Origin: Natronomonas gomsonensis | GTDB taxonomy: Archaea > Halobacteriota > Halobacteria > Halobacteriales > Haloarculaceae | Length of the DNA stretch: 64,000 nucleotides | NCBI RefSeq assembly: GCF_024300825.1 | Contig: NZ_CP101323.1 | Location: 1,054,001-1,118,000 of the forward strand | Direction of reading: 5' to 3' | In this document: in pieces, positions 6,946-38,660 of the stretch | How positions within the stretch are numbered: the first letter of the stretch is position 1 | Layout: every line of letters starts with the position of its first letter | Made by a program: the position numbers and the translations under genes | The notes under the pieces: generated by a model | The model's input: only the letters and a program-made list of their open reading frames with translations | Database searches by the model: none | Told to the model about the DNA's origin: nothing

Positions 6946-8028
6946 TTAGAGTTCCATCTCGCCGTCGATTATCATCTGGGCCTGTTCGGCGAGTGCGGGG
7001 ACGCCCTCGCGCATCTTCGGATACATCGGGTCGTCGGAGTTGCCCTCCAGATACCGCCGGAAGAACATCTCTCCGAGGCCGGCGAGTTTGTAGACGGCGA
7101 GCACCCAGTAGAACTTCCAGTTATCGAACTCGAAGCCGGTCTTCCGCTCGTAGCGCTCGACGAGGTCACGGCGGGTTGGGTAGCCCTCGTTGGTCATGAA
7201 CGTCGAGGCCAGCGTCGGCGTGGGCGGTTCGGGGTCTTTCTCCTCGCGCCAATACGAGAGCATCCATCCGAGGTCGGTGAAGGGGTCCCCGAGCGTCGAC
7301 ATCTCCCAGTCGAAGATGGCGGCGATTTCGGGATCGTCCGAGGGCGCGAACATCACGTTGTCGAGTTTGTAGTCGCCGTGGACGAGCGTCGATGGGTACT
7401 CGTCGTCGTCGGGGGCGTTCTCGGTGAGCCACGACATCACGTCGTACAGCGTCTCGACTTCGCGTTCCTCGGCGGTGACCTCGAAGGCCCACGTCAACTG
7501 CTCGGACCACCGACGGACCTGCCGTTCGGTAAAGCCCGGCGGATAGCCGAAGTCGCCGTGTTCGAGGCCGACCGATTCGTAATCGACCTCGTGAATCTCG
7601 ACGAGTCGGTCGACGAGTTCGTGGCCGATGGCTTCCCGTGCCTCGGGGTTGGCGAAACGCTCCGGTTCGGTGTCCCGGAGCACGTCACCTTCGGCCTTCT
7701 CCATCCCGTAGAAGTCACACCCGAGAATCGAGTGGTCGTCGGTGGCGAACACCGTCGTCGGGACCCGAACCTCGGTGTCTTGGAGGGCGTCGATGACGCG
7801 ATACTCTCTGAGTACGTCGTGGGCGTTCTCGGCGATGTCGCCCGGCGGCGGCCGACGGATGACGAGTTCCTGCTCGCCCCACGTGACGAACAGCGTCTCG
7901 TTGGAGTGGCCCTCTTGGTGGTGGGAGACCTCGAAGGTTTCGGCGGGACCGAGTTCCGATTCGAGGTACGCCTTCAGTTTCTCCCGGTCGACGATGCGGT
8001 CGAAGTAGTCGGAGCTAGTGTCCGTCAC
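6946..8028 (-). CDS. APH-type phosphotransferase (ACAD10/11 kinase-domain-like)
   Basis: The 360-residue kinase-like protein has the aminoglycoside-phosphotransferase catalytic loop HGDYKLDN (His217, Asp219, Asn224) and the metal-binding DWE at Asp240; the ATP lysine region is ELVIRRPP. This subfamily is closest in type to the kinase half of animal ACAD10/ACAD11, which phosphorylates 4-hydroxyacyl-CoAs so that the partner dehydrogenase can remove the hydroxyl as phosphate. The divergent neighbour is an acyl-CoA dehydrogenase with the matching family signature, so the same job is inferred. I chose GTG at 8028: a GGAGG-like site lies about 10 nt upstream and a TTACAATG box about 30 nt upstream. 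An in-frame ATG at 8112 would add 28 poorly structured residues reaching past that box. Confidence 0.85.
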   Translation of the reverse strand: MTDTSSDYFDRIVDREKLKAYLESELGPAETFEVSHHQEGHSNETLFVTWGEQELVIRRPPPGDIAENAHDVLREYRVIDALQDTEVRVPTTVFATDDHSILGCDFYGMEKAEGDVLRDTEPERFANPEAREAIGHELVDRLVEIHEVDYESVGLEHGDFGYPPGFTERQVRRWSEQLTWAFEVTAEEREVETLYDVMSWLTENAPDDDEYPSTLVHGDYKLDNVMFAPSDDPEIAAIFDWEMSTLGDPFTDLGWMLSYWREEKDPEPPTPTLASTFMTNEGYPTRRDLVERYERKTGFEFDNWKFYWVLAVYKLAGLGEMFFRRYLEGNSDDPMYPKMREGVPALAEQAQMIIDGEMEL

Positions 8029-8052
8029 CGTCCGACACCCTCCGAATTCGCT

Positions 8053-8146
8053 AACATTGTAAGGAGTTGTGTGCGACCCTGCCCCAAATAACTGCCGCCG
8101 TCGCGACGACAACGGGTCCGAAGTTCGCCGGTTCTTTTACAATGTT
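8053..8146. promoter_or_regulatory. Divergent promoter with inverted TTACAATGTT boxes (kinase / acyl-CoA dehydrogenase)
   Basis: The same 10-mer occurs in opposite orientations: AACATTGTAA at 8053-8062 (reading TTACAATGTT toward the kinase) and TTACAATGTT at 8137-8146 (toward the dehydrogenase). Each sits about 25-30 nt before its start codon, so each overlaps the expected TATA position. Identical boxes suggest matched expression or a shared regulator. Confidence 0.5.
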
Positions 8147-8165
8147 GTGCCCTAAACGCTCCGCC

Positions 8166-9380
8166 ATGGAGTACCACGACTCCCCGGAAGCGAAGGAACT
8201 CGCCGAGCGCGCACGCGAGTTCGTCGACGATGTCGTCATCCCGACCGAACGCGAACACCTCGGCGGTGGACCGGTCGGCGAGGAGGTCATCGAGGACCTC
8301 CGGGCGGAGGCCCGCGAGCGGGACATCTACTGTCCACAAATTGACGAGGAACACGGCGGAATGGGGTATGACCTCGCCGACGTGTTGCCGCTGTTCGAGG
8401 AAGCCGGTCGCTCGCTTCTGGGCGCTTCCGCGATGCGCGTCGACGCGCCCGACGAGGGGAACATGCACACTATCGAACTGGTCGGCACCGAGGCCCAGAA
8501 AGAGGAGTGGCTCGAGCCGCTTGTCGCCGGCGACATCCGGTCGGCCTTCGGGATGACCGAACCCCGGGCCGGCGCCGGCTCGGACCCCAAGATGCTCAAG
8601 ACCACCGCCGAAAAGGACGGCGACGAGTGGGTCATCAACGGCCACAAGTGGTGGACGACGCAGGGCAGTCACGCCGACGTCATCCTCGTGATGGCCGTCA
8701 CCGACCCCGACGTCCACCCCTACAAGGGCGCCTCCATCATCCTCGTCCCCACCGACGCCGACGGCGTCGATTTCGTCCGCGACATCCCGCATCTCGGACC
8801 CGACCTTGATGGCCACGGCCACGCCGAATTCGAGTTCAACGACGTGCGGGTTCCCGAGGAGAACCTGCTCGGACAGGAGAACATGGGCTTTGCCATCGCC
8901 CAACAGCGTCTCGGCCCCGCCCGCCTCACTCACTGCATGCGCTTCTCGGGGATGGCGACGCGGGCGCTCACCATCGCGAAGGCGTACATGAGCGAACGGG
9001 AGGCCTTCGGTTCGTCGCTGTCCGACAAGCAGTCGCTGCGCTACGACATCGCCGACAAGGAGACGGAACTCCACGCGGCCCGGACGATGGTCCGCCACGC
9101 CGCCGAGGAAATCGCCCGCGGCGAAGAGGCCCGCATCCCCGTCTCGATGTCGAAAGTGTTCACCGCGAACGTCGCCCAGGAGACAATCGACCTCGCGATT
9201 CAATGCTGTGGCGGCGCCGGCATCTCCCGTGACCTCCCGCTTGCGGACTTCTACGAGGGCGTTCGGGCCTTCCGTATCGTCGACGGCGCCGACGAGGTCC
9301 ACCAGCGCGTTATCGCCCGCGACGCCTTCGAGGGCGCCGAGGAGAACGCCCACGAACTGGAGCGGACGCCCACGTTCTAA
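8166..9380 (+). CDS. Acyl-CoA dehydrogenase, ACAD10/11 type
   Basis: The 404-residue flavoprotein has the usual acyl-CoA dehydrogenase layout: helical N-domain, beta middle with TEPRAGAGSDP and HKWWTTQG, and helical C-domain with REAFGSSLSDKQ and CCGGAGISRDLPLADFY. At the place where ordinary members carry the catalytic EGT it has VDGADEVH, resembling the xDGPDEVH signature of ACAD10/ACAD11. With the divergent APH kinase (138 nt away), the SDR and the HAD phosphatase, it probably acts on phosphorylated 4-hydroxyacyl-CoA or a similar hydroxylated acyl-CoA; the substrate is inferred. ATG 8166 follows a TTTTACAATG box by about 28 nt; upstream in-frame residues are not family-like. Confidence 0.87.
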   Translation: MEYHDSPEAKELAERAREFVDDVVIPTEREHLGGGPVGEEVIEDLRAEARERDIYCPQIDEEHGGMGYDLADVLPLFEEAGRSLLGASAMRVDAPDEGNMHTIELVGTEAQKEEWLEPLVAGDIRSAFGMTEPRAGAGSDPKMLKTTAEKDGDEWVINGHKWWTTQGSHADVILVMAVTDPDVHPYKGASIILVPTDADGVDFVRDIPHLGPDLDGHGHAEFEFNDVRVPEENLLGQENMGFAIAQQRLGPARLTHCMRFSGMATRALTIAKAYMSEREAFGSSLSDKQSLRYDIADKETELHAARTMVRHAAEEIARGEEARIPVSMSKVFTANVAQETIDLAIQCCGGAGISRDLPLADFYEGVRAFRIVDGADEVHQRVIARDAFEGAEENAHELERTPTF

Positions 9381-9383
9381 AAC

Positions 9384-9816
9384 CACTTTTTGCACGCTCC
9401 GGCGGTCGCGCGCCGCTCGGCGCGCGACACGCCTCCGCGGCAAAAACTTGGGGAAAATATGCGCGAGAGCCTCCAGTCGCGCGCCTTCGGCGCGCGGTAG
9501 TCGGCTCTCGCTACGGCGACTCACTTCGTTCGTCGCCGCGAACCGCGCTCGCTTCGCTCGCACGGACACTCAGAAAAAAGAAAACATCAGAAGCATCCAC
9601 GAGCGTTTTAAGCCCGAAACAAATTATTTGGCTATCATCCGCCTCGGGGGCGTCCGTCAGGTCGCCCCCGAGGCGGTTCTCCGAGCGCGAACGGAGTGAG
9701 CGCTCGGTAGCGCGCGCGGACTGGCGCGAGCGAAGCGAGCGGAAGGAGCACGCGCTATTTTTCCCCAAGTTTTTGCCGCGAGGCGCGGCTCCGCCGCGCC
9801 GAGCGTGCAAAAAGTG
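9384..9816. repeat. Nested inverted repeats filling the 438-nt convergent gap
   Basis: No gene is seen between the stop codons at 9380 and 9819. The ends are inverted copies: a 16-nt block at 9384-9399 matches 9801-9816 and a 22-nt block at 9436-9457 matches 9759-9780, both exactly. Inside are perfect hairpins: 9463-9471/9503-9511 enclosing 9478-9485/9489-9496; 9639-9652/9663-9676 (14 bp, 10-nt loop); 9681-9688/9700-9707. Each outer arm begins with a T5 run right after a stop codon, so the arms may be duplicated terminators; a MITE-like insertion is the alternative. Confidence 0.7.
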
Positions 9817-9818
9817 GG

Positions 9819-10598
9819 TTAGAAGGAGAAAAGGTCGATACCGCCGGTGACGCCGATGACCTGTCCGGTGATGTAGTTGGATTGCTCCGAGGAGAGGTAG
9901 GCGACGAGGTTCGAGACGTCCTCTTCCTTGCCGAGTTTCCGCATCGGGGTTGCCTTGGCGATGCGGGCGAAGTGCTCGTCGACCTGTTCGAGTTGGTCGA
10001 TGGGGAGGTCCGCGAGTTGGCCAACGACGATGCTGGGGGCAATGATGTTCGAGGTGACGCCGTGTTGGGCACCTTCGAGTGCGAGCGTCTTGCCGAAGCC
10101 GATGAGCGCCGCCTTCGTCGCCGAGTAGGAGAGCTGGCCGAAGCCGCCCTGCCAACCGGCCATCGAGGACATCGAGATGATGCGACCGAAGCCGCGTTCC
10201 TTCATCCCGGGATAGACGGCCTGTGTGATGTTGTAGGCGCCGGTGAGGTTGACGGCGATGTCACGGTCCCAGATTTCGTCGTCGAAGTCCTCGACCTTGT
10301 CGCGGGCGTCGACCATCCCGGCGTTGTTGACGAGGATGTCGATGCCGCCGGTCTCCTCTTCGAGGGCGGCGACGGTGTTGGCGACGTCCTCTCGGTCGGT
10401 GAGGTCACACTCGACGGCGTGGGCGGTGCCGTCGTAGTCCTCCTCGATTTCGTCGGCGATGTTTTCGGCGGCTTCGTAGTTCACGTCGAGGACGACCACT
10501 TCGGCGCCCTCCTCGGCGAGTACGCGGCAGTCTTCGCTTCCGATACGTCCGGCACCGCCAGTGACGAGAGCGGTTTTGTCGTCGAGTCCTAGGTCCAT
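9819..10598 (-). CDS. SDR-family oxidoreductase (FabG-like)
   Basis: The 259-residue short-chain dehydrogenase has the glycine-rich cofactor loop GGAGRIG (14-20), NNAG near residue 92, and the catalytic YSATK (Tyr158, Lys162) preceded by a Ser in SMSSMAG. Length is typical. FabG-like members interconvert hydroxyacyl and ketoacyl thioesters or alcohols and ketones; the neighbourhood (acyl-CoA dehydrogenase, kinase, HAD phosphatase) suggests a hydroxyacyl-CoA substrate. A TATA-like TTATAG sits about 29 nt before the ATG. The gene converges on the acyl-CoA dehydrogenase across the palindromic gap. Confidence 0.82.
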   Translation of the reverse strand: MDLGLDDKTALVTGGAGRIGSEDCRVLAEEGAEVVVLDVNYEAAENIADEIEEDYDGTAHAVECDLTDREDVANTVAALEEETGGIDILVNNAGMVDARDKVEDFDDEIWDRDIAVNLTGAYNITQAVYPGMKERGFGRIISMSSMAGWQGGFGQLSYSATKAALIGFGKTLALEGAQHGVTSNIIAPSIVVGQLADLPIDQLEQVDEHFARIAKATPMRKLGKEEDVSNLVAYLSSEQSNYITGQVIGVTGGIDLFSF

Positions 10599-10624
10599 TG
10601 CAACACAGGTGTCTCCGGGTTTCG

Positions 10625-10632
10625 CTATAAGG
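10625..10632 (-). promoter_or_regulatory. TATA box for the SDR gene starting at 10598
   Basis: CCTTATAG on the minus strand is centred about 29 nt upstream of the ATG, fitting a leaderless transcript. Confidence 0.55.
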
Positions 10633-10691
10633 ATTTGGACGGTGATACGAGGGGCGTTTAGTAGGGGACGTGTGAACGGGCGACGAACGCC

Positions 10692-11381
10692 TCAGTCCGA
10701 GACGCCGACGACCGCGAGTAACTCCCGGAGGGCTTCGAGTTCGTGGTCGGCTTTCGGGCCCCAGCCTTCCTCGCCGTAGCCGGCTGCGGCGATTCCGAGC
10801 GCCGACGCGCCGGCAACGTCGTGAGAGTGGCGGTCCCCGACCATTACCGTTCGTTCGGGGTCGGATTGGATTGCTCCGAGGGCATCACGGAACATTCGCT
10901 CGTCGGGTTTCGTGTAGCCGACGGCTTCGGAGGTGGTGACGTGGGCGAAACACTCGTGGATGCCGAACGAGTCGAGCATGTTCTCGGCTTCGTGGGTGTC
11001 GATATCGGAGACGATGGCCTGCTCGATGCCGGCGTCGGCCAGCGTCTCGATGGTCTCGATTGCACCGTCTTCGGCGCGCAGCGTCGCCGCGGTACAGCGG
11101 TCGAAGGTTGCTCGCCACCCCTCCGGTGGGTCGCCGTCGAACAGCGCGGCCGTCGCCTTCCGGTATCCCTCCTTTGCGGTTCGGTATTCGGTTCCCTCCC
11201 GGCCACGGAAGTGCTCGCCGAGGACGGATTTCCAGTCGTCGAGGGCCGTCTCGGGGTCGAGGCCGTGTGTATCGGCGAGTTCGGCGACGAAGGCTGCGTA
11301 CCCCTCCCGGACCGATGCGAGTTCGACGATGACGCCGCCGATATCCCAGAAGACGGTGTCGTAGCGGTGGCCGTCGCTCAC
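10692..11381 (-). CDS. HAD-family phosphatase (ACAD10 / epoxide-hydrolase N-domain type)
   Basis: The 229-residue HAD protein has motif I as DIGGV (Asp13 nucleophile, the second Asp replaced by Gly), motif II in AIVSDID, the motif III lysine in GYTKPDE, and motif IV VGDRHSHD. The DxGGV form of motif I is the hallmark of the subgroup that includes the N-domains of soluble epoxide hydrolase and of ACAD10. Since free-standing ACAD10-type kinase and dehydrogenase genes lie within 4 kb, this may be the third ACAD10 module as a separate protein. It overlaps the upstream metallo-hydrolase gene by 4 nt, so the two are co-translated. Substrate is unknown. Confidence 0.82.
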   Translation of the reverse strand: MSDGHRYDTVFWDIGGVIVELASVREGYAAFVAELADTHGLDPETALDDWKSVLGEHFRGREGTEYRTAKEGYRKATAALFDGDPPEGWRATFDRCTAATLRAEDGAIETIETLADAGIEQAIVSDIDTHEAENMLDSFGIHECFAHVTTSEAVGYTKPDERMFRDALGAIQSDPERTVMVGDRHSHDVAGASALGIAAAGYGEEGWGPKADHELEALRELLAVVGVSD

Positions 11382-12340
11382 GGTTCGTAGTGCCGAACGC
11401 CGTCGCGCAGTTCGCTGTCGAGTTCGCCGGTCGCATCGAGGTGGGCGAGCGCACTCATCGTCTCTGGGATGAGGTACTTCACGTCGCGGTCACCGGCGAT
11501 GGCCATCGCGACGCCCGGGACGGTGGAGTAGCCGTCGGCGACGAGGTCGCTGACGCGTTCGAGACGATTGTCGAGGCTGCCGCGGTCGCGTTCGACGGCG
11601 CCGGCGAGGTCGGTGTGGACGGCGCCGTGGCCGGGGTAGACGCGGTCGACATCGAGTTCGGCGAGGCGGTCGAGGGCGGTGTAGAAGGCGTCAAAGGCTT
11701 CGACGTGGCCGTCATCGAGGCCGTCGTGCATGACGACTGGGCGGAACGGCTGGATTCCCATGTCGCCGCCGAGAAGCACCGACTCGCCGTCGATTTCGGC
11801 GGGATAGCTCAGGTGGTCGGCCTGATGGCCGGGGACGTGGACGGCGCCGACTTCGATGTCGCCGATTTCGGTTCGGTCGCCGGGCGCTATCCACACGTCG
11901 ACTGCCGCCGGTGGGAGGAGTTCTCGGTTTCGCTCCAGTGACTCGACGGCCATGTCGACGGCCATCTCCAGTTGTTCCTCGGGGAATCCGGCCTCAGTGC
12001 AGTTCTCGCGGACGCGGGCTTCGAGGGCGCCGAGGTCGCGGTCGAAACGTTCTTCGACGCTCGCGGGCGCGTAGACGGTCGGGTCGCCCTCCTCAAGCAC
12101 TGCCGGGACGAGACCGATGTGGTCGACGTGAGGGTGGGTGATGAGGACGTGTTCGATATCGCCCGGCTCGTATCCCAACTCGGCGAGCTGTGAGCGAAAC
12201 GCCGCTTCGTGGTCCGGGAGCGCGGCGTCGACGAGAATCGGCTCCGACCCCTCGATGAGGTAGCAGGCGACGTGGCCCGGTGGCCAGTCCACGTCGAACT
12301 CCAGTCGGCGGACGCTCCCCTGTTTGCTCCGTGTTTCCAT
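11378..12340 (-). CDS. Metallo-beta-lactamase-fold hydrolase
   Basis: The 320-residue protein has the dinuclear metal motif THPHVDH (His69, His71, Asp73, His74), further ligands in VPGHQADH and GGD, and YPGHGAVH. An unusual C-terminal helical extension of about 80 residues looks like a small winged-helix region (as in LACTB2-type enzymes). Members hydrolyse thioesters, lactones or RNA; given the acyl-CoA genes around it, a thioesterase or lactonase is plausible but unproven. It heads the pair with the HAD gene (4-nt overlap). A paralogue of the same layout lies at 45646-46605, also beside acyl-CoA genes. Confidence 0.8.
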   Translation of the reverse strand: METRSKQGSVRRLEFDVDWPPGHVACYLIEGSEPILVDAALPDHEAAFRSQLAELGYEPGDIEHVLITHPHVDHIGLVPAVLEEGDPTVYAPASVEERFDRDLGALEARVRENCTEAGFPEEQLEMAVDMAVESLERNRELLPPAAVDVWIAPGDRTEIGDIEVGAVHVPGHQADHLSYPAEIDGESVLLGGDMGIQPFRPVVMHDGLDDGHVEAFDAFYTALDRLAELDVDRVYPGHGAVHTDLAGAVERDRGSLDNRLERVSDLVADGYSTVPGVAMAIAGDRDVKYLIPETMSALAHLDATGELDSELRDGVRHYEP

Positions 12341-12514: not shown

Positions 12515-13291
12515 ATGTTAGAGCAGTTCAGCGTCGACGGCAACACGGCAGTCATCACCGGGTCGAGTCAGGGTATCGGTGCCGTCACCGCAAAGCGATT
12601 CGCCGACGACGGCGCGAACGTCGTCGTCACCTCCCGGACACAGGAGAAAATCGACGAGGTCGCCGCCGAAATCAACGACAGCGACCGGCCCGGCGAGGCC
12701 ATCGCCGTCGAGTGTGACGTTCGCGACCGCGACAGCGTCGAGGCACTCATCGAGGCCACCGTCGAGGAGTTCGGCGCCGTCGACTGCATGGTGAACAACG
12801 CTGGAGCCTCCTTCATGGCCGGCTTCGACGACATCTCCGAGAACGGCTGGAAGACCATCGTCGATATCAACCTCCACGGTACTTTCCACGGCGCACAGGT
12901 CGCCGGCCAGCAGATGCAACAACAGGAGTCGGGAGGAACCATCATCAACTTCGCGAGCGTCGCGGGGACGATGGGCTCTCAGTACATGAGCCACTACGGC
13001 GCCGCCAAGGCCGCCGTCGTCAACCTCACCACGTCGCTGTCGGCGAACTACGCCGACCACGACATCCGGGTCAACTGCATCGCCCCCGGCCTCGTCGGCA
13101 CGGCAGGAGTCGCCTCCCAGATGGGTCTCGACCCCGCCGACGTCGACCGCAGCGACATCGCCAAGGAGATGGGCCTACCCGAGGAGATAGCCGACATCGT
13201 CCAGTTCCTCGCCAGCGACGCCTCCTCCTACATCGTCGGCGAAACCATTACGGCACAGGGCGTCCCGCCGTTAGAGGACTCCCAACTGTGA
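12515..13291 (+). CDS. SDR-family oxidoreductase
   Basis: The 258-residue short-chain dehydrogenase shows TGSSQGIG (15-22), NNAG near residue 94, Ser148 and YGAAK (Tyr161, Lys165). Arg41 after the second strand (TSRT) suggests NADP preference. It is likely a 3-ketoacyl/3-hydroxyacyl or alcohol dehydrogenase. It is followed after 7 nt by an F420-type oxidoreductase, so the pair is an operon divergent from the metallo-hydrolase/HAD pair. It differs clearly from the SDR at 9819-10598, so it is not a recent duplicate. Confidence 0.83.
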   Translation: MLEQFSVDGNTAVITGSSQGIGAVTAKRFADDGANVVVTSRTQEKIDEVAAEINDSDRPGEAIAVECDVRDRDSVEALIEATVEEFGAVDCMVNNAGASFMAGFDDISENGWKTIVDINLHGTFHGAQVAGQQMQQQESGGTIINFASVAGTMGSQYMSHYGAAKAAVVNLTTSLSANYADHDIRVNCIAPGLVGTAGVASQMGLDPADVDRSDIAKEMGLPEEIADIVQFLASDASSYIVGETITAQGVPPLEDSQL

Positions 13292-13298
13292 TTCCCCA

Positions 13299-14300
13299 AT
13301 GACCGAACGCGACGTGTTCCTCCCGGTCGCCGCACAGCCGAGCGTCGACGCGCTCGTCGAACAGGCCCAACTCGGCGAGGAGTTGGGCTACGACACCGCG
13401 TGGCTCCCCGAGACGTGGGGGCGCGACGCCGTGACGACGCTGACCTGTATCGCCCGCGAAACCGAGACCGTCGACATCGGCACCTCGATTATGCCGGTGT
13501 ACTCCCGTTCGCCAGCGCTCATCGGACAGAGCGCGGCGACGCTACAGGAAGTCTCGGAGGGTCGATTCCGACTCGGTCTCGGTCCCTCCGGCCCCATCGT
13601 CATCGAGAACTGGCACGGCGCGGAGTTCGGCAATCCCCTGCGTCGGACGCGGGAGACCGTCGACATCGTCAAGCAGGTCCTCTCCGGCGAGGAAGTCGAG
13701 TACGACGGGGAGTACTTCGACCTTGAAGGCTTCCGGCTGCGGTGTGAAGCCCCCGACCCAGTTCCGCCCGTCGAGACCGCCGGGATGGGTCCGAAGGCGG
13801 TCGAACTCGCTGGCCGGTTCGCCGACGGCTGGCACGCACTGATGTTGACGCGGGATGGCCTCCGAGAGCGACTGGAGGACTTCGAACGCGGGTCGGAGAT
13901 GGGTGACCGCGACCGCTCCGAACAGCGCGTCACGCTGTCGTTGACCTGCTGTGCCCTGGAGGACGAAGCGGAGGCGAAACGGCTCGCCAAACAGCACGCC
14001 GTCTTCTATCTCGGCGGCATGGGAACGTACTACCGCGACAACCTCGCCCGACAGGGCCACGAGGAAGTCGCCCACGCAATCTACGACAACTACCAGGACG
14101 GCGACAGAGAGGCCGCGATGGCAGCACTGCCCGACGACCTCTTAGAGCAGTTGGTCGTCTGGGGCACTCCCGAGGGGGCCCGCGAACACTTCGAGCGATT
14201 CACCGACGTCGAGGGCGTCGAAGCCGTCTCGGTGTCGTTCCCCCGGGCGGCGGACCTCGAACAAATCGACTCGACGATGCGGGCGCTACAGCCGCGTTGA
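13299..14300 (+). CDS. LLM-class F420-dependent oxidoreductase (NP1902A-type)
   Basis: The 333-residue TIM-barrel protein of the luciferase-like class has DTAWLPETWGRDA, VDIGTSIMPVYSRSP and the phosphate-binding RFRLGLGPSGP. It matches the haloarchaeal coenzyme F420-dependent family named after Natronomonas NP1902A. Such enzymes move hydride between F420 and a small organic substrate, which is unknown here. It is the second gene of an operon with the SDR (7-nt gap), so the two may act in sequence on the same compound, one with a nicotinamide and one with F420. Confidence 0.82.
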   Translation: MTERDVFLPVAAQPSVDALVEQAQLGEELGYDTAWLPETWGRDAVTTLTCIARETETVDIGTSIMPVYSRSPALIGQSAATLQEVSEGRFRLGLGPSGPIVIENWHGAEFGNPLRRTRETVDIVKQVLSGEEVEYDGEYFDLEGFRLRCEAPDPVPPVETAGMGPKAVELAGRFADGWHALMLTRDGLRERLEDFERGSEMGDRDRSEQRVTLSLTCCALEDEAEAKRLAKQHAVFYLGGMGTYYRDNLARQGHEEVAHAIYDNYQDGDREAAMAALPDDLLEQLVVWGTPEGAREHFERFTDVEGVEAVSVSFPRAADLEQIDSTMRALQPR

Positions 14301-14459
14301 CGACTGCCCCGTTCGGCTTTTCCTTACCGCTGTTTCCCATATCGCTCCAGAGCCTACCATTGTTCTCCAGTGAGGCCATCGGACCCAGAACTGTTAGGAA
14401 CTTTTTGATAGTTGAAGATTCACGCGGGGTTCTTAACCCCGGGGTCGTTTTGCGACTGT

Positions 14460-15545
14460 ATGGCAGACCAAAAGCCACGACAATCGACACGTCGACGTTT
14501 TCTCGCAACGACCGGGCTCAGCGCCGGAGCGTTCGCCCTCGCCGGGTGTACCGGTGGAAACGGAGGAAACGGCGGCAACGGTGGTAACGGCGGCAACGGC
14601 AGCAACGACGGGCCTGCGCCCGGCTCTGACGGCAACCTCGTGATGACGACGTCGGGGTCGAGTACGACCGCCTACGCCGCGAGTCAGGGCCTCTCGGCCG
14701 CCGTCGAGGAACACAGCGACTCCGTCAGCATCGACGCCCGCCCCAGCAACGGGACCGACGCCAACGTCGCCCGACTCGATCGAGAGGAGAGCGACATCGC
14801 CTACATCCAGAACTGGACGGCCGCGCGACTCCGACAGGGAGAAGCGCCGTTCGACGACCTGAACTACGACCCCGTACAGGTGTTCCACCTGTACAACCTT
14901 CCGTGGATTTTCGCCACGGCCAACGCCGACTGGACCTCGGTGACCGACATCGAATCCGACAGTCGCGTCGTCCCGACACCGCGCGGTTCCGGGACCGCCC
15001 CGGCGCTGGAGCACGGCCTCGAGTACGCCGTCGACGACTACGAGCGCGTCAGCGTCGGCTACGGTGAGTTGGGCGGTGCGTTCAGCGAGGGCCGCATCGA
15101 CGCCGCCGCGATTACCATCCTCAACGGCGACATCGAGCCCGGCTGGGTCCAGGAGATGAAAGGCAGCGTCGACCTCCGACTGCTCGATTGGCCCGAGGAT
15201 GCTGTCCAGTCGATGCGCGACGACGACAGCCTGCTGGTTCAGGACGTGGACATGACTTCCTTCGAGGGCTACGACTACGCCTCCGACAGCATCCCCTCGA
15301 TTACGTTCGCCTACAACTTCATCAGCCGACACGACCTCGATTACGACGCCGTCTACTCGCTGCTGGAGACGCTGTACGAGAACCGCGAGGGGCTCTCGGA
15401 GTTCAACGCCCTGCTGGGCTATCACGAGGAACCGGAGTACTGGGTCAGCGACATGTACGAGGGTATCCCGTTCCACCCGGCCGCCGCCGACTTCTACCAG
15501 GAAATCGGCGTCTGGCGAGACGAGTTCGAGCGGTACGAGGAGTAG
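14460..15545 (+). CDS. TAXI-family TRAP transporter solute-binding lipoprotein
   Basis: The 361-residue protein starts with a Tat lipoprotein signal (STRRRFLAT, lipobox LAGC with Cys30), then a flexible Gly/Asn-rich linker, then a periplasmic-binding-type fold. TAXI traits are LVMTTSGSSTTAYAASQGLSAAV at the start and PRGSGTAPALEHGLE in the middle. It captures a solute, usually a carboxylate, outside the cell for the fused permease encoded 3 nt downstream. The frame is open from 14412, but ATG 14460 gives the proper signal; a weak TTCTTAACC lies about 27 nt before it. The Gly/Asn repeat is coding low complexity, not a DNA repeat element. Confidence 0.86.
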   Translation: MADQKPRQSTRRRFLATTGLSAGAFALAGCTGGNGGNGGNGGNGGNGSNDGPAPGSDGNLVMTTSGSSTTAYAASQGLSAAVEEHSDSVSIDARPSNGTDANVARLDREESDIAYIQNWTAARLRQGEAPFDDLNYDPVQVFHLYNLPWIFATANADWTSVTDIESDSRVVPTPRGSGTAPALEHGLEYAVDDYERVSVGYGELGGAFSEGRIDAAAITILNGDIEPGWVQEMKGSVDLRLLDWPEDAVQSMRDDDSLLVQDVDMTSFEGYDYASDSIPSITFAYNFISRHDLDYDAVYSLLETLYENREGLSEFNALLGYHEEPEYWVSDMYEGIPFHPAAADFYQEIGVWRDEFERYEE

Positions 15546-15548
15546 GCC

Positions 15549-17582
15549 ATGGAGCGTGAGGCTCCACTCGGCGTCCGTGAGCGACTCGACCGACCGCCGG
15601 TCGAGTTGGGGCTGCGGAGCATCATCTACGCCTTCGCCGTCTTCCTGACGCTGTACACCATCTACTACGCCTACACCCTGTTTTGGGTTCGCGTTCGCTT
15701 CGCGAACATCTTCCTCGGGGTCGGCGTCGCGCTGTTTTACCTCGTCCAACTGCTGGAGAAACACGTCGCCGAACGGGACGTAGACGACCTCGAAGCCGAA
15801 ACCGCCGACGAAGGGTCCTCGTTGTCCGACTACAGACTGTGGGAGGTCGCTGACGTTGTCATGCTTCTCGCCGGTGCCGTCGTGGCACTCGCTGTGGCGG
15901 GGTACGTCGAACTCCACTTCGCACGACTGCTGGAGGACGCACCCATCTTCGGCTGGACGACGACCGACTACTACGTCGGCGTCGCCGCGATGTTGCTCGT
16001 CACCGACGCGACGCGGCGGGCCTACGGCAACGTCATCGCTGGCGTCGTCGTCGCCGGCATCGCCTACGCCTTCGTCGGTCCCTACCTGCCGGGCGTGCTG
16101 TATCACACCGGCATGGACTGGCAGCAGGTCGCCCGCAACGGCGCCATCGGTCTCTCAGGCGTCTACGGATTCATCCTCGAAGTGGGGACCACCGCAGTCG
16201 CCATCTTCCTGATGTTCGCCGGCATGGCGAAAGCCTACGGCCTGATGGACCTCGTGTTGAACCTCAGCCGCGAGGTGCGGAACGTTCTCGAAACCGGCGT
16301 CGTCCAAGTCGCCGTCGTCGGCAGCATGATAATGGGTTCCATCACGGGCAGCGCCGCGGCCAACACCGCGACGACCGGGAGCTTCACGATTCCGATGATA
16401 AAAGATCAGGGCGTCCGCGAGGACTTCGCGTGTGCCATCGAGTCGGTGGCCTCCAGCGGTGGCCAGATGCTGCCGCCGATTATGGGCGTCGCCGCCTTCC
16501 TGATGGCCGACATCCTCGGTATCCCCTACCTCGAAGTCGTCAAAGCCGGACTGTTCCCGGCGCTTTTGTTCTACTTCAGCGTCGGCGCCGCGGTTCATCT
16601 CATCATCCACAAGTTCGACTGGACGACCGACGCCGAGGGAACCTTCGACAAGAGCATCCTGCTGGACGGCATCCACTACGTCATCCCGCTTGGCATCCTG
16701 TTGTACACGCTCGTCGTGTTGCGGTTCTCGCCGCTGAGCGCGGGGTTCTACACCATCGTCGCGCTCGTTCCCTCGGCGCTTCTCAAGCGACTCATCGACG
16801 CCTACCGCGAGGACGATTCCCCGGCCGAGGTCGCGGTCGATTTTACCGTCACGACCTTCGACGGTCTCCGACAGGGTGCCGTCGACATGGCACCGCTGGT
16901 CGGCATCCTCGCCTCGCTCGGCATCGTCATCACGATGGTCGAACAGACCGGCCTCGGCGCTCGTATCAGTTTCCGGATGCTCGCGTTAGCCGGCGGGGTT
17001 CTCGTCGTCCTCCTGCTGTTGGCGATGGCGACGAGCATCCTCTTCGGACTGGGGATGCCGACACCCGCCGCCTACATCGTCGTGGCAGCACTCGTCGCGC
17101 CGGCACTGACCACGAGCGAGACGTTCACCATCCAACCGCTGACCGCACACATGTTCGTGTTCTACTTCGCGATGCTGTCGGCGATTACGCCGCCGGTGGC
17201 TGTCGCAGTCGCCGTCGGGGCCCGCATCGCCGACTCGGACTTCCTGCAGTCGTGTAAGCAGGCGCTCCGCATCGGTGCCCCCGGGTTCGTCATCCCCTTC
17301 GCGTTCGTCGCCAACGACGGCATCATCATCTGGTCGTCGACCACGCCTATCGACCTGTTCGTCGTGTTGGCCGGCACCGTCGCCGTCGTCGTCGCGACGG
17401 TCGGCTACGACGGAGCGAGCGACCTCGGGTGGCCACACCGCATCGTCTACCTCGCCATCGCCGGCGGGGCGATGTTCGGCCCACGGATGGTGCAGGTCGG
17501 CACGGCCGGACTGCTCGTCCTCACGCTTGCACTCGCGAACACCGGTCGAATGCCGGCCGTCGTCACCCCCTCTCGACAATGA
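15549..17582 (+). CDS. TRAP transporter permease, fused small and large subunits (TAXI type)
   Basis: The 677-residue membrane protein joins an N-terminal four-helix small-subunit-like region with the large DctM-like permease. The large part shows GSITGSAAANTATTGSFTIP followed by SGGQMLPPIMG, the typical TRAP substrate and Na+ region, and a repeat-like GLGMPTPAAYIVVAAL in the second half. It drives uptake with a Na+ (or H+) gradient. It starts 3 nt after the binding-protein stop, forming a two-gene transporter operon, and the ThDP enzyme 82 nt downstream suggests the imported solute is a 2-oxo acid or similar; that link is inference. Confidence 0.87.
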   Translation: MEREAPLGVRERLDRPPVELGLRSIIYAFAVFLTLYTIYYAYTLFWVRVRFANIFLGVGVALFYLVQLLEKHVAERDVDDLEAETADEGSSLSDYRLWEVADVVMLLAGAVVALAVAGYVELHFARLLEDAPIFGWTTTDYYVGVAAMLLVTDATRRAYGNVIAGVVVAGIAYAFVGPYLPGVLYHTGMDWQQVARNGAIGLSGVYGFILEVGTTAVAIFLMFAGMAKAYGLMDLVLNLSREVRNVLETGVVQVAVVGSMIMGSITGSAAANTATTGSFTIPMIKDQGVREDFACAIESVASSGGQMLPPIMGVAAFLMADILGIPYLEVVKAGLFPALLFYFSVGAAVHLIIHKFDWTTDAEGTFDKSILLDGIHYVIPLGILLYTLVVLRFSPLSAGFYTIVALVPSALLKRLIDAYREDDSPAEVAVDFTVTTFDGLRQGAVDMAPLVGILASLGIVITMVEQTGLGARISFRMLALAGGVLVVLLLLAMATSILFGLGMPTPAAYIVVAALVAPALTTSETFTIQPLTAHMFVFYFAMLSAITPPVAVAVAVGARIADSDFLQSCKQALRIGAPGFVIPFAFVANDGIIIWSSTTPIDLFVVLAGTVAVVVATVGYDGASDLGWPHRIVYLAIAGGAMFGPRMVQVGTAGLLVLTLALANTGRMPAVVTPSRQ

Positions 17583-17633
17583 CACGAACCACCCACGAAC
17601 CCACTAAAAGCGGCCGACTTCCGACGGAATCAA

Positions 17634-17642
17634 CTATTTACC
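17634..17642 (+). promoter_or_regulatory. TATA-like box for the ThDP enzyme at 17665
   Basis: CTATTTACC is centred about 27 nt before the ATG, so this gene can be transcribed separately from the TRAP operon. Confidence 0.5.
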
Positions 17643-17664
17643 GACGGCCGCGACAGGTAGAGCC

Positions 17665-19359
17665 ATGACCGACTCCTACACGGGAGCCGACCTGTTCGTC
17701 GACGCGCTCGAGCAGTACGGCGTCGAGCACGTCTTCGGCAACCCCGGAACGACCGAGTTGCCCATCATGAACGCGCTGTCCGAAAGCGACGTCGAGTACG
17801 CACTCGGACTGCAGGAGGACGTGGCGACGGGGATGGCCGCCGGCTACGCCTCGACCCGACGCTACCACGCCGACGACGACCCCGAGGTCTGTCCGGTCGG
17901 CGTCGCCAACCTTCACGTCACCCCCGGACTCGCACACGGCCTCGGCAACGTCTTCGGTGCGATGTACGGCGGCGTCCCGATGGTCGTCACCGCCGGTAAC
18001 CACGAACTCGACTTCCGCCACGAGGAACCCATCCTCACCGGCGACTTAGAACAGATGGTCGAGCAGTTCTGTAAATACTCCGCGGAGGTGACTCACATCG
18101 ACGCCTTGCCGATGCTCGTCCGCCGGGCGTTCCGCGTCGCGATGACGCCCCCGACCGGCCCCGTCTTCCTCGCGCTGCCGGCCGACGTGATGATGACCGA
18201 GACGGAGGCCGACCCCGAGCGACTCGGTCCGATTCCCGACGCCGGTGCGGGCGACCCGGCCCAAATCGAGGCCGCCGCCGACCAACTCCTCGAGGCCGAC
18301 CAACCCGTCCTCGTGTTGGGCGACCACGTCGCCCGCGCGGGCAAGGACGCAATCGACGCCGCCGTCCGACTCGCCGAGGCGACCGGCGCACGCGTCCACG
18401 GCGAAATCCTCGCGAGCGAAGTGAACTACCCGACCGACCACCCGCAGTGGATTTCCTTCATCGGTCCCGACGAGGGCATCGCCTCGATGCTGATGGACAC
18501 CGACACGCTGGCGCTCGTGGGCTGTTCGACCAACACGACGCTGTTGCACCACGATAACCCGCTCGTCTCCGAGGACACCACGACGATTCAAGTCTCCAGT
18601 GACCCCTGGGAGGTCGGCAAGAACCACCCCGCTGATTCCGCCGTCGTCGGCGACCCCGGCCGGGTGATGGACGCCATCGCAGAGCGCGTCGAAGACCGCC
18701 TCGACGAGGAGGAGCGACAGTCCCGAATCGACTACGTCGAGACGATGAAGGCCAGTCTCGAAGCGACGATGGAGGACCTCGGCGAAGACGAAACACCGGA
18801 GGGCGACACCCGGTCGTCGAAGGCCGAACTCGTCGACAACATGAAAGCCGTCGACTCCGACACCTACATCGTCGACGAGGGCGTCACCTCGAAGTTCGCG
18901 CTACTGACCCGGTTCCCGATGGAACCCGAACAGTACCTCTCGAACAAGGGTGGCGGCCTCGGCTACGGCTTGCCCGCCGCCGTCGGTGCGGCCTTCGCCG
19001 AATCCCTGCAGGACGACCCCCGAAACGTCGTCGGCTACATCGGCGACGGCTCGTATCTGTACTACCCCAACTCGATGTACACGGCGGCCCGTCACAACCT
19101 CGATATGACCGTCGTCGTCCCCGACAACCGCAACTACCGCATCCTCAAGGACAACACCGTGAAGATGATGGGCGGCGAGGAAGACGACTACGAGTTCGTC
19201 GGTATGGACTTCGAGCCCCACGTCGACATCCCGAAAAACGCCGAGAGCCACGGTGCTCGTGGCCACCTCGTCGAGACACCCGAGGAGTTCCCCGAGGTGT
19301 ACGAGGAGGCGCTCGAAAGCGAGGGACCGGACGTTATCGACGTGTTGGTCCACGACTGA
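17665..19359 (+). CDS. ThDP-dependent decarboxylase, benzoylformate-decarboxylase-like
   Basis: The 564-residue protein has the three-domain ThDP fold. The N-domain has FGNPGTTELP and the activating Glu in GLQEDVATGMAAGYA; NLHVTPG keeps a His where benzoylformate decarboxylase has its catalytic His70. The C-domain has GDGSYLYYPNSMYTA followed by the Asn of PDNRNY for Mg-ThDP. The GNPG-x-x-ELP loop carries Thr where the Pseudomonas enzyme has Ser26. An acetolactate-synthase role is less likely because that family lacks this NLH. A 2-oxo acid decarboxylase acting on the solute imported by the upstream TAXI-TRAP system is a reasonable guess. Confidence 0.78.
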   Translation: MTDSYTGADLFVDALEQYGVEHVFGNPGTTELPIMNALSESDVEYALGLQEDVATGMAAGYASTRRYHADDDPEVCPVGVANLHVTPGLAHGLGNVFGAMYGGVPMVVTAGNHELDFRHEEPILTGDLEQMVEQFCKYSAEVTHIDALPMLVRRAFRVAMTPPTGPVFLALPADVMMTETEADPERLGPIPDAGAGDPAQIEAAADQLLEADQPVLVLGDHVARAGKDAIDAAVRLAEATGARVHGEILASEVNYPTDHPQWISFIGPDEGIASMLMDTDTLALVGCSTNTTLLHHDNPLVSEDTTTIQVSSDPWEVGKNHPADSAVVGDPGRVMDAIAERVEDRLDEEERQSRIDYVETMKASLEATMEDLGEDETPEGDTRSSKAELVDNMKAVDSDTYIVDEGVTSKFALLTRFPMEPEQYLSNKGGGLGYGLPAAVGAAFAESLQDDPRNVVGYIGDGSYLYYPNSMYTAARHNLDMTVVVPDNRNYRILKDNTVKMMGGEEDDYEFVGMDFEPHVDIPKNAESHGARGHLVETPEEFPEVYEEALESEGPDVIDVLVHD

Positions 19360-19409
19360 TCGAATCCGTTCACCCCCGTTTTCGTCTTCCGCGGCCCACG
19401 GTTCGAGTG

Positions 19410-19444
19410 TTCGATACTCGACGGCCGAAGGTTCAAGTATCGAA
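19410..19444. repeat. Imperfect inverted repeat after the ThDP gene
   Basis: GTTCGATACT and the later AGTATCGAAAC form arms with one bulge and a loop of about 15 nt, about 50-85 nt after the stop at 19359. The rest of the 229-nt gap up to 19588 has no gene I can support. It may be a transcript-end structure. Confidence 0.35.
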
Positions 19445-19588
19445 ACGCGACCAGACGACCCCGTGCGCTGAACGTCGCTGACGAGTCGCCGAGGCGGTCG
19501 CGCGACCCACGGCTCGTCAGTACGCCGGGTCGCCTGTTCGCTACACCGAAACGGCAGCGATTTCACTCGACAGCCGTTACTCGACATC

Positions 19589-20491
19589 GTGTCACGGTTC
19601 TACGCAACGGCCCTCTTCGTCGCACTCGCGACGATGTGGGGGCTGTCGTTTCCCGCAATCAGCGTCGGTCTCGAATTCATCCCGCCGCTGCTGTTCGCCG
19701 CCTTCCGCTACGACGTGGCCGCCGTCCTGCTGCTCGGCTACGCAATCCTGACGACCGACAGTTGGCGGCCAGTCGGCCGCAACAACGCCGAGGCCATCGT
19801 CGGTGGCGGCCTCTTTCTGGTCGCCGGCAACGGCTTGCTGTTCGTCGGCCAACAGACCGTCCCGAGCGGCGTCGCCGCCATTTTGCAGGCACTGGTCCCT
19901 ATCGCCACCGCGCTGTGGGCCCTCGGGGTACTCGACGAGCGCCTCACCGGGGCAGGCGCAGCCGGCGTCGTGTTGGGCTTTCTCGGTATCGGACTCATCG
20001 TTCGTCCGGACCCGTCGAACCTGTTGGCCGGCGACACGGTGGGACGACTCCTCATCGTCGGACAGGTCGTAAGCGTCGCCTTGGGCGGCGTGTTGGTCCA
20101 GCGTGCCGGCCCGACGATGGAACGGGTCGCACTCACCGGCTGGTCGATGCTCCTCGGCGGCGTGACGCTACATCTCGTCAGCCTCGGTGCAGGTGAAGTT
20201 CCGACGGCAACGATTATCGCCCCCACGGCCCTCGGCGCAGTCGTCTATCTCGGCGTGTTCTCGACGGCCATCGCCTTCGTCATCTACTTCACCTTGCTCG
20301 AAGAGCGCGGCGCCTTCGAGACGAGTCTCGTCGCCTACCTCGTCCCCGTGGTCGCCACCGTCGCCGGCGTCGTCCTCCTCGGTGAGACCATCAGTCCGCT
20401 CTCTGTCGTGGGATTCACCGTCGTGTTCTTCGGCTTCGTACTGCTGAAACGGCGGGCGCTCGCCGACCTAATCGATTCGACCGGCAGTTGA
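19589..20491 (+). CDS. EamA/DMT-superfamily permease
   Basis: The 300-residue protein has ten hydrophobic helices in two EamA repeats; the first begins TMWGLSFPAISVGLEFIPPL and the second has VVYLGVFSTAIAFVIYFTLLEE and PVVATVAGVVLLGE, a standard drug/metabolite transporter pattern. It exports or imports a small metabolite that cannot be named. The start is GTG at 19589, the only codon that gives the full first helix. It lies downstream of the ThDP gene after a 229-nt gap and is probably independent of it. Confidence 0.82.
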   Translation: MSRFYATALFVALATMWGLSFPAISVGLEFIPPLLFAAFRYDVAAVLLLGYAILTTDSWRPVGRNNAEAIVGGGLFLVAGNGLLFVGQQTVPSGVAAILQALVPIATALWALGVLDERLTGAGAAGVVLGFLGIGLIVRPDPSNLLAGDTVGRLLIVGQVVSVALGGVLVQRAGPTMERVALTGWSMLLGGVTLHLVSLGAGEVPTATIIAPTALGAVVYLGVFSTAIAFVIYFTLLEERGAFETSLVAYLVPVVATVAGVVLLGETISPLSVVGFTVVFFGFVLLKRRALADLIDSTGS

Positions 20492-20515
20492 TGCCCCTCG
20501 AAGAGGAATCGGGCG

Positions 20516-20719
20516 TCAGTAGTATCCGCGGACGTTGCTGGAGCCGATAGCCGCCGCAGAGCCGAGATACCCCAACACCGCGCCGCACTCCCGACACTCA
20601 AGTTGGGTGTGCTGTTGGGCGCCGGCGTCGACGTCGACGTTGCCGTCGAATATCTCTTCGAGGAGTATCTGCTTGCCGGCAGGGGTATCGTTGTCCGCCC
20701 CGCAGTCGAGACACTTCAT
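20516..20719 (-). CDS. Zinc-finger micro-protein (CxxC...CxxC), second of a tandem pair
   Basis: The 67-residue protein starts MKCLDCGAD and has a second CxxC in ECRECGAVLGYLG, so it should bind one zinc ion. Between them is an acidic segment with ILLEEIFDG. It is clearly related to the gene just upstream (20721-20909): both keep CxxC, an acidic middle, LEC-x-x-C and AVLGYL. The stop codon of that gene and this ATG are separated by a single base, so they are co-translated. Role unknown; haloarchaeal zinc micro-proteins often act in regulation. ATG 20719 is preferred because it begins right at the first CxxC. Confidence 0.72.
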   Translation of the reverse strand: MKCLDCGADNDTPAGKQILLEEIFDGNVDVDAGAQQHTQLECRECGAVLGYLGSAAAIGSSNVRGYY

Positions 20720-20720
20720 C

Positions 20721-20909
20721 TCAGCCCCCCGCCGCCGCGCCGACGGCCAGATAGCCGAGGACGGCCTCGCAGTTGGGACACTCCAACTGGACGTGCTCCT
20801 GGGCACTAACGTCGATGTCGCCGGCCTCCTCGCTGAAGAACTCGTCGACGCGAATCGTGGCCGCGTTCGGTACCTCCATCTCCTCCTTGCAGTGCGGGCA
20901 GTGTGTCAC
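20721..20909 (-). CDS. Zinc-finger micro-protein, first of a tandem pair
   Basis: The 62-residue protein MTHCPHCKEE... has two zinc pairs, CPHC near the start and CPNC near residue 46, with the shared ending EAVLGYLAVG. It looks like a duplicate of the next gene (20516-20719), with similar spacing between the pairs and an acidic VDEFFSEEAGDIDV middle. It probably works as a small metal-binding adaptor, but nothing in the context defines its partner. It lies tail to tail with the CoA transferase promoter-distal end, 51 nt away. Confidence 0.72.
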   Translation of the reverse strand: MTHCPHCKEEMEVPNAATIRVDEFFSEEAGDIDVSAQEHVQLECPNCEAVLGYLAVGAAAGG

Positions 20910-20960
20910 GCCCGGGGGAACGAACGCGGTGAGTATAGTGGTTGTGCCGACTTCGGTCGG

Positions 20961-22130
20961 TCAGCGGACGGCGCCGTCCTCGCGGAGATGTTCGATGTCT
21001 CCCTCCGAGAGTCCCGCCGATTCGAGGAGTTCGCCGGTGTGTTCGCCGTGGCCCGGCGTGTCGACGGTCGCCGAGTGCTCGATATCTGAGCCACGAAGCG
21101 GGAATCCGACGCGGGGAGAGCCGTCGTCGGGGCGTTCGACGTATCCCCGTGCCTCTATTTGGGGATGGTCGAAGGCCTCGGCCGGCGAGTAGACGCCGTC
21201 GACGGCGGCGTCCACGTCGGCCATCGTCTCGGCCCACTCATCGCGCGTTCGTTCGGCGAAGATGGCTTCGAGTTCCTCCCGAACAGCCTGCCGTTCGGCG
21301 GGGTCGTTGGTCATGTGCTTGCCTATCAGTTCGGGTCGGTCGACGGCCTCACAGAACGCACTCCAGAACTGCGGTTCGAGCGCGCCCAAGGTCACGTAGT
21401 TGCCGTCGGCGGCCTCGTAGACGTCGTACCACGGATACTCCCCGGTCAGCGGTGTCTCGCTCGGGCGCGGGTCGTCGCCGGCGAGTGCCTGCGGCGCCAG
21501 CGCCTGCGAGAAGGAGACGACGGCGTCGGTGAGCGCCACGTCGAGGTACTCGCCACCCGTGTTGCCGAGTTCACGCGACAAAAGCGCCGAACACACCGAG
21601 TAGGCGGCGAGCAGTCCCCCCGCCATATCGGCGATTTGATACCCCGGCATCCGCGGTTTCTCATCGCTGTCCTCGCGGGTCATATCGAGCAGTCCCGCCA
21701 GTCCGATGTAGTTGAGGTCGTGGCCGGCGCGGTCGGAGTGAGGCCCTTCCTGTCCGTACCCCGTCAGCGAGCAGTACACGAGGTCCTCGCGGTACTCGGT
21801 GAGCGTCTCGTAGTCGACGCCGAGGCGTTCGGTGACGCCCGGGCGGAAACTCTCGATGACCACGTCGGCGTCTTCGACGAGCGCGTAGAACGCCTCGCGG
21901 CCGCCCTCGCTTTTGAGGTCGAGGGCGACGCTTCGTTTGCCACGGTTGACGGCGTCGAAGACGGCACCGACGCCGGCCTCCGTCGTCGGCGGCATGTGCC
22001 GTGCGTAGTCGCCCGAGCCGGTGTCCTCTATCTTCACCACGTCGGCGCCGGAGTCGGCGAGCAGTTGCGTCGCATACGGGCCGGGGAGCAGTCGCGTGAG
22101 GTCGAGCACGCGAACGCCATCGAGTTGCAT
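20961..22130 (-). CDS. Family III CoA transferase (CaiB/BaiF type)
   Basis: The 389-residue protein has the family III N-terminal signature MQLDGVRVLDLTRLLPGPYATQLLADSGADVVKIE, with a conserved Asp expected to carry CoA in the second half of the fold, and the motif GYGQEGPHSDRAGHDLNYIG that includes the catalytic-Asp region. The group includes 2-methylacyl-CoA racemases and carnitine or succinyl CoA transferases; GHDLNYIGLAG favours the racemase branch. ATG 22130 starts the conserved domain, and a TTATG patch lies 26 nt upstream. It is divergent from an acyl-CoA dehydrogenase, so the two probably share a degradation route. Confidence 0.84.
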   Translation of the reverse strand: MQLDGVRVLDLTRLLPGPYATQLLADSGADVVKIEDTGSGDYARHMPPTTEAGVGAVFDAVNRGKRSVALDLKSEGGREAFYALVEDADVVIESFRPGVTERLGVDYETLTEYREDLVYCSLTGYGQEGPHSDRAGHDLNYIGLAGLLDMTREDSDEKPRMPGYQIADMAGGLLAAYSVCSALLSRELGNTGGEYLDVALTDAVVSFSQALAPQALAGDDPRPSETPLTGEYPWYDVYEAADGNYVTLGALEPQFWSAFCEAVDRPELIGKHMTNDPAERQAVREELEAIFAERTRDEWAETMADVDAAVDGVYSPAEAFDHPQIEARGYVERPDDGSPRVGFPLRGSDIEHSATVDTPGHGEHTGELLESAGLSEGDIEHLREDGAVR

Positions 22131-22151
22131 GGATTTGGGTGGGAGCCTCGT

Positions 22152-22203
22152 CACATAAGCCTGCCGTCGGCCGGGAACCGTCCGTGCGTGGTTTGTTTAA
22201 ATG
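22152..22203. promoter_or_regulatory. Divergent promoters for the CoA transferase and the acyl-CoA dehydrogenase
   Basis: Leftward, GGCTTATGTG (minus strand) is centred 26 nt before the ATG at 22130. Rightward, GTTTGTTTAAA at about 22192-22202 would start a transcript near 22225, giving a leader of about 30 nt before the ATG at 22256. Confidence 0.45.
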
Positions 22204-22255
22204 CCCCTGCCAGACGGCGCGCAGGGTTCAAGAGGCGGCCGTCGTATGTGGTGGT

Positions 22256-34182: not shown

Positions 34183-34206
34183 CCGTGTTTCAGCTGTAGT
34201 GCCATG

Positions 34207-34215
34207 CCTTTATAC
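34207..34215 (-). promoter_or_regulatory. TATA box for tnpB
   Basis: GTATAAAGG on the minus strand, about 29 nt before the TnpB start codon at 34182. Confidence 0.55.
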
Positions 34216-38486: not shown

Positions 38487-38627
38487 ACCACGCCCTCGAA
38501 GAAACGATATAAAATCGTATGTTTTGAAAACGATAGCGTTTACGCACCACGGTAGCCTTAAACTTCTCTTGTTCTTCTCGTTTATATACTCTATCAAATA
38601 TTTTCTGATGGGAAATAATAGGGAGCG

Positions 38628-38637
38628 TTTATATATT
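38628..38637 (+). promoter_or_regulatory. TATA box for the acyl-CoA ligase
   Basis: TTTATATATT is centred about 28 nt before the ATG at 38661. The 174-nt gap is very AT-rich and has two further TATA-like runs near 38509 and 38580, so this is a strong, possibly regulated start for the downstream catabolic genes. Confidence 0.65.
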
Positions 38638-38660
38638 GGTCTGCTATCCGAGCGGACTGT

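Follow-up and report, generated by a model that had tools for sequence, protein, structure and literature searches.

The kinase/acyl-CoA dehydrogenase pair

Does a haloarchaeon encode, as separate genes, the kinase, acyl-CoA dehydrogenase (ACAD) and HAD parts that are joined in animal ACAD10? This question was raised by a window of 64,000 nucleotides (nt) from Natronomonas gomsonensis (positions 1,054,001 to 1,118,000 of contig NZ_CP101323.1, assembly GCF_024300825.1), the genome of which has a size of 3.65 Mb in two contigs and is almost closed; the positions given below are those of the window. Based on our analysis, two intact and divergently oriented neighbouring genes probably encode a hydroxyacyl-coenzyme A (CoA) kinase and a phosphate-eliminating ACAD that would feed beta-oxidation, with linked short-chain dehydrogenases (SDRs) and a HAD-fold protein in the same pathway. 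The sequence supports family membership, residues, gene linkage and a conserved promoter element. The pair and the elements between its genes are:

6946..8028, minus strand: APH-fold protein of 360 aa, putative hydroxyacyl-CoA kinase of the LvaA/ACAD11-kinase family, GTG start at 8028 likely
8052..8062, no strand assigned: near-palindromic operator-like element TAACATTGTAA on the kinase side
8135..8145, plus strand: element TTTTACAATGT on the ACAD side, possible promoter/operator
8166..9380, plus strand: LvaC/ACAD10/11-type acyl-CoA dehydrogenase of 404 aa, putatively phosphate-eliminating, assigned by residues and tree

All the motifs named in the initial annotation for kinase, ACAD and HAD protein were found in intact genes, and the Pfam domains agree. 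We identified HGDYKLDN and FDWEMST in the kinase (APH, 2.2e-41) and DGADEVH in the ACAD (Acyl-CoA_dh, 1.9e-37). Comparison of the kinase with the PDB revealed 9o56, 3dxp, and ACAD11 as nearest structures (1e-61 to 7e-48) and nothing else close, and for the ACAD, 4hr3 and ACAD11 ranked above about 100 ordinary ACADs. Cryo-electron microscopy of ACAD11 has shown that R626, H634, and R637 hold the 4-phosphate and that D753 is catalytic, and in its kinase part D220 and N225 are named as catalytic residues and R86 and R176 as CoA contacts (PMC12440821). The window proteins were aligned with ACAD11 and about 50 to 60 haloarchaeal relatives per protein. Equivalents of all four kinase residues were detected in the window protein (HGDYKLDN, LREYR, ERQV) and are kept in essentially all haloarchaeal relatives aligned. 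In the ACAD, RLGPARLTHCMR and DGADEVH hold the equivalents of R626, R631, H634, R637, and D753, and the phosphate-binding cluster and the Asp base at the D753 position were present in every full-length haloarchaeal relative aligned; ordinary ACADs of the same neighbourhoods display EGTSEI and no His/Arg cluster. In the IHHCMR stretch, Thr takes the place of the first His.

In trees from quick maximum-likelihood searches without bootstrap, the ACAD grouped with LvaC/ACAD11-like enzymes against ordinary ACADs (value of 99 for the outgroup branch, which is long). There it formed part of a separate haloarchaeal clade (100) on a branch that it shares with bacterial enzymes of the TH/AH type and outside the clade of ACAD11 and 4hr3 (100). 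The kinase fell into a single haloarchaeal clade (100) apart from the ACAD11/3dxp clade (100), and within its phylum it was found solely in the order Halobacteriales. Thus, the suggested relationship to ACAD10/11 held with respect to the family and its full diagnostic residue set, but the clades of both proteins lie outside that of ACAD11. Transfer from bacteria to haloarchaea would be the likeliest origin of the two genes.

A second LvaC-type ACAD, 63% identical and with RLGPARLTHCLR and DGADEVH, was observed at L230 (7088-8323; G000:C1:2609105-2610310), where no kinase adjoins. A second APH-fold kinase-like gene (L002 and G000:C1:1580201-1581375) revealed an altered catalytic loop (YPWDLRPGN); it directly follows a HAD gene in which DLDGT is intact, and a carboxyltransferase-like open reading frame lies next to it.

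Co-occurrence and a shared promoter element

Across 117 genomes of the order Halobacteriales, searched with cut-offs of E ≤ 1e-60 for the kinase, E ≤ 1e-100 for the ACAD, and E ≤ 1e-30 for the HAD protein, the kinase was detected in 67 genomes and the ACAD in exactly the same 67. The two genes are at most 500 bp apart in 40 of them and at most 10 kb apart in 50, so that the neighbourhood, which had been proposed as a check, is indeed conserved in many related genomes. Both genes are missing from two congeners of the window's genome. As genomes without the pair still harbored up to 14 ACAD candidates each, the pattern does not merely reflect the presence of beta-oxidation. The hypergeometric figure for the co-occurrence is descriptive only, since related genomes are not independent; a co-occurrence in 67 of 67 genomes combined with this proximity cannot be chance.

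The divergent intergenic region displayed TTTTACAATGT at 31 nt upstream of the ACAD start, together with an inverted match, TAACATTGTAA, on the kinase side, which matches the ACAD-side element as its reverse complement; the palindrome pattern has no second match in the window. Two other loci (L070 and L072) revealed this arrangement of two elements, and 27 of 38 divergent pairs have a TTTTAC-type box at a distance of 28-36 nt upstream of the ACAD start. In 1.23 Mb of haloarchaeal loci, the strict form of the element was matched 19 times, a count that is not a genome-wide rate because these loci had been selected for the genes in question. Eighteen of the 19 matches lie at these genes, 13 preceding the ACAD and 5 a short way upstream of kinases without an adjoining ACAD. 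In one family, f7 (L080, L087, L125, L126, and L127), the TTTTACAATGT element is kept close upstream of the kinase with no ACAD adjoining. The position of the element would fit a leaderless transcript whose TATA-like box is overlapped by an operator. A scan with a sigma-70 promoter model, which is not applicable to archaea, gave no match.

Proposed pathway and the HAD protein

From the features described above we infer the substrate, the position of its hydroxyl group and the reaction, as well as the roles of the HAD protein, the SDRs, a metallo-beta-lactamase-fold hydrolase, and an LLM-class oxidoreductase. The kinase would phosphorylate a hydroxyacyl-CoA at its hydroxyl group, with C4 as the most likely position, and the ACAD would remove the phosphate by internal redox elimination on flavin adenine dinucleotide, yielding a 2-enoyl-CoA that can enter ordinary beta-oxidation. 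The linked SDRs, possibly with an F420 enzyme, would probably make or interconvert hydroxy- and ketoacyl-CoA, and the HAD protein may act in the same pathway by clearing the phosphorylated intermediate or keeping it in check. The genes concerned are:

9819..10598, minus strand: SDR1, FabG/BadH-like short-chain dehydrogenase (Pfam adh_short, 3e-55)
10692..11381, minus strand: HAD-fold protein with motif I FWDIGGV, second Asp replaced by Gly (Pfam Hydrolase, 8.1e-21)
11378..12340, minus strand: metallo-beta-lactamase-fold hydrolase (Pfam Lactamase_B, 2.2e-25)
12515..13291, plus strand: SDR2, a recurrent neighbour whose relatives are annotated as "glucose 1-dehydrogenase"
13299..14300, plus strand: LLM-class F420-dependent oxidoreductase (TIGR04024, 1.2e-168), a recurrent neighbour

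Of the SDR and the metallo-hydrolase that had been described as sitting among the three genes, the former does so (9819-10598), but the latter lies nearly completely beyond 11381. The metallo-hydrolase gene overlaps the HAD start by four bases, which suggests that metallo-hydrolase, HAD, and SDR1 form one operon.

The HAD gene was found in 44 genomes, all within the 67, and is located within 10 kb in 29 of them. In all 34 aligned HAD relatives motif I reads D-x-G-G, and motifs II-IV (SD, KPD, GDRYxxD) as well as the nucleophile Asp are kept; the window protein has DIGGV, and the two other HADs of this genome with a readable motif I have DLDGT. The best score was obtained with TIGR02253 or a related ribulose-bisphosphate-phosphatase-like model. 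TIGR02247 (epoxide-hydrolase-like), which served as a proxy for the ACAD10 HAD in place of a comparison with the ACAD10 sequence itself, scored weakly, with 47 bits at most against a cut-off of 125.4, and other HAD subfamily models, mostly TIGR02253, scored higher in nine of nine proteins. A separate origin of the haloarchaeal HAD and the ACAD10 HAD is therefore likelier. Thus, the HAD protein resembles the third domain of ACAD10, as had been claimed, in its genetic linkage and in keeping only the first Asp of DxD, but by score it belongs to another HAD subfamily. A single-sequence structure prediction reached a predicted local distance difference test score of 43 and was discarded.

The HAD protein might be an active phosphatase that hydrolyses phosphohydroxyacyl-CoA when this has stalled, or a different phosphate ester, and so serves the pathway as a safety valve; in our estimate this has slightly less than an even chance. 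The conserved nucleophile and motifs II-IV and the strong linkage to the kinase/ACAD pair speak for it, and some HAD phosphatases, e.g., E. coli YihX, also have Gly at the position in question, which on its own does not exclude phosphatase activity. Against it stand the replacement of the acid/base Asp in all 34 aligned relatives, with DLDGT in the two other HADs of the genome that have a readable motif I, and the example of ACAD10, whose HAD is also without the second Asp, displays negligible activity as a phosphatase, and holds the kinase back (PMC11342911). Phosphate elimination in animals is carried out by the ACAD domain and not by the HAD (PMC11342911). It seems doubtful that haloarchaea recruited a stand-alone, catalytically weakened DxGG HAD as a regulator or proofreader of the kinase independently of the HAD fused in ACAD10; if so, two domains of life would have reached the same control of a phosphorylated acyl-CoA intermediate. 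With kinase, ACAD, and HAD as individual proteins, and not joined in a single chain that is cleaved, the system would lend itself to work on the puzzling role of the degenerate HAD.

Neighbouring genes

Apart from the HAD gene, several genes recur near the pair, the counts depending on the choice of loci. Of the 52 loci analysed, 24 have an SDR2-like gene no more than 9 kb from the kinase; the gene order is conserved, and the LLM oxidoreductase adjoins SDR2 in about 15 loci. A fusion of 3-hydroxyacyl-CoA dehydrogenase and enoyl-CoA hydratase was found near the pair in 21 of 52 loci, and an ordinary ACAD in 17 of 52. Zinc alcohol dehydrogenases, a MaoC dehydratase, and an acyl-CoA ligase are further recurrent neighbours. 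Close relatives of SDR1 were detected in 23 of the 117 genomes, adjoining the HAD gene in a few, and the metallo-hydrolase adjoins it in five other genomes. On plasmid pHME132 of Haloferax mediterranei, genes for SDR, HAD, ACAD, kinase, and 3-hydroxyacyl-CoA dehydrogenase stand in a row; kinase and ACAD of this species are WP_004060557 and WP_004060558. The fusion enzyme is also encoded in the window's own genome (70% identity). The fusion, the ordinary ACADs, MaoC, and the acyl-CoA ligases, as well as the gene row on pHME132, speak for the proposed pathway.

That HAD, SDRs, metallo-hydrolase, and LLM oxidoreductase merely form a general acyl-CoA catabolic island, with nothing specific to the kinase/ACAD reaction, appears unlikely. 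Many neighbours are indeed general beta-oxidation genes, and the HAD gene is missing from 23 of the 67 genomes, while others have it at a great distance or on a different contig. However, no HAD of this similarity was found in the 50 pair-less genomes, though these harbor other HADs and ACADs, and the adjacency of the HAD gene recurs in several families.

Downstream of the cluster (14412-23476), we identified a TAXI-type TRAP transporter pair, a thiamine pyrophosphate (TPP) enzyme, an EamA transporter, a CaiB/BaiF CoA-transferase, and a further ACAD. These genes may belong to the same uptake/catabolic island.

Substrate and remaining alternatives

Some observations weigh against a pair acting on 4-hydroxyacyl-CoA. 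Since both proteins lie outside the clade with ACAD11, their specificity may differ, and a specificity for 4-hydroxy substrates is thus only presumed. In the literature searched, no biochemical data on any haloarchaeal member were found. In the window, no beta-oxidation hydratase or ligase directly adjoins the pair, and no AMP-ligase was recognised within about 20 kb of it, the nearest one found being 29 kb off; in relatives of the locus, an AMP-ligase is located near the pair.

The same two-step chemistry might instead serve another hydroxylated acyl-CoA (branched, isoprenoid-derived, aromatic, or 3/5-hydroxy) rather than straight-chain 4-hydroxy acids, which we regard as rather improbable. 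The deep separation of both haloarchaeal clades from ACAD11, the Thr in the IHHCMR stretch, the TRAP transporter, TPP enzyme, and CaiB-type CoA-transferase in the neighbourhood, and a bacterial relative that adjoins a bile-acid-type symporter would agree with such a substrate, but all residues reported as 4-phosphate contacts are kept, and this points to a phosphate in the same position. Finally, though the APH fold is common to many small-molecule kinases, a resistance-type or sugar/choline-type kinase with an incidental ACAD neighbour is extremely unlikely, given that the closest solved relatives are ACAD11 and similar proteins and that co-occurrence with the ACAD is perfect across the sampled genomes, and an aminoglycoside-resistance kinase was rejected because the APH(3') model scored only 32 bits against a cut-off of 205.

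Comparison with known systems

The initial annotation regarded the ACAD10/11 chemistry in an archaeon, unfused, as probably new. The unfused form as such is not new, since LvaA and LvaC are already separate proteins (PMC12440821, PMC11342911), and the pair is widespread in bacteria. In the lva operon of Pseudomonas putida, which serves levulinic acid catabolism, kinase and ACAD are likewise encoded by separate genes, and LvaC shares the phosphate-binding residues and the catalytic Asp with ACAD10/11 (PMC12440821). Burkholderia orthologues of LvaA and LvaC replace the ACAD10 domains in vitro (PMC11342911, PMC12440821). The lva operon is further marked by the kinase partner LvaB and the acyl-CoA synthetase LvaE next to the pair. 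Compared with LvaA/LvaC as described in publications, the haloarchaeal pair is archaeal, divergent instead of co-directional, accompanied by a linked HAD gene, and placed in other kinase and ACAD clades. Pseudomonas loci (e.g., L172) considered as lva operons were rejected, as they revealed no kinase match within 7 kb.

Animal ACAD11 combines the same kinase and ACAD families, shares all listed active-site residues, and was among the top PDB matches, but it is fused in one chain, is peroxisomal, and has a clade outside which the haloarchaeal proteins branch. Animal ACAD10 likewise unites a kinase and an ACAD with a HAD in which just the first DxD Asp is kept, though in one polypeptide instead of three genes, and the haloarchaeal HAD is nearer to TIGR02253 than to TIGR02247. 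Bacterial kinase-ACAD-SDR clusters (Deinococcus, Roseivivax, Massilia, Rhodococcus, and many others) have adjoining kinase and ACAD genes with the same residues and often an SDR. Among 80 loci from a bacterial-led ACAD query (79 bacterial and one Halorubrum), 42 had a kinase no more than 7 kb away and 28 had an SDR no more than 2.5 kb from the ACAD, whereas a HAD-like gene was found within 7 kb in only one, as a weak match.

No relevant archaeal or haloarchaeal mention of the pathway was found in the open-licence literature searched, and archaea are unmentioned in both ACAD10/11 papers (PMC12440821, PMC11342911). The haloarchaeal branch, which lies outside the characterised clade, thus appears to be unreported in this literature. 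New are an archaeal branch with complete signature residues, its order-wide co-inheritance, the conserved shared promoter element, and the linked DxGG HAD. As the kinase/phosphate-lyase route has been described in mammals and bacteria, this branch would extend it to the third domain. More than half of the Halobacteriales genomes sampled have it, and a tractable host is available in H. mediterranei, with the genes on pHME132. This species converts gamma-butyrolactone into a polyester containing 4-hydroxybutyrate (PMC3880725), which makes a source of substrate plausible.

Other genes of the window

Further away from the cluster, two adjoining genes for UbiD-type decarboxylases, the second with a weak match to the UbiD domain, are followed by an AMP-binding acyl-CoA ligase (35557-40340). 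At 32902-34209, we also identified a TnpB-like gene with Cas12f1-like TNB and OrfB_IS605 domains.

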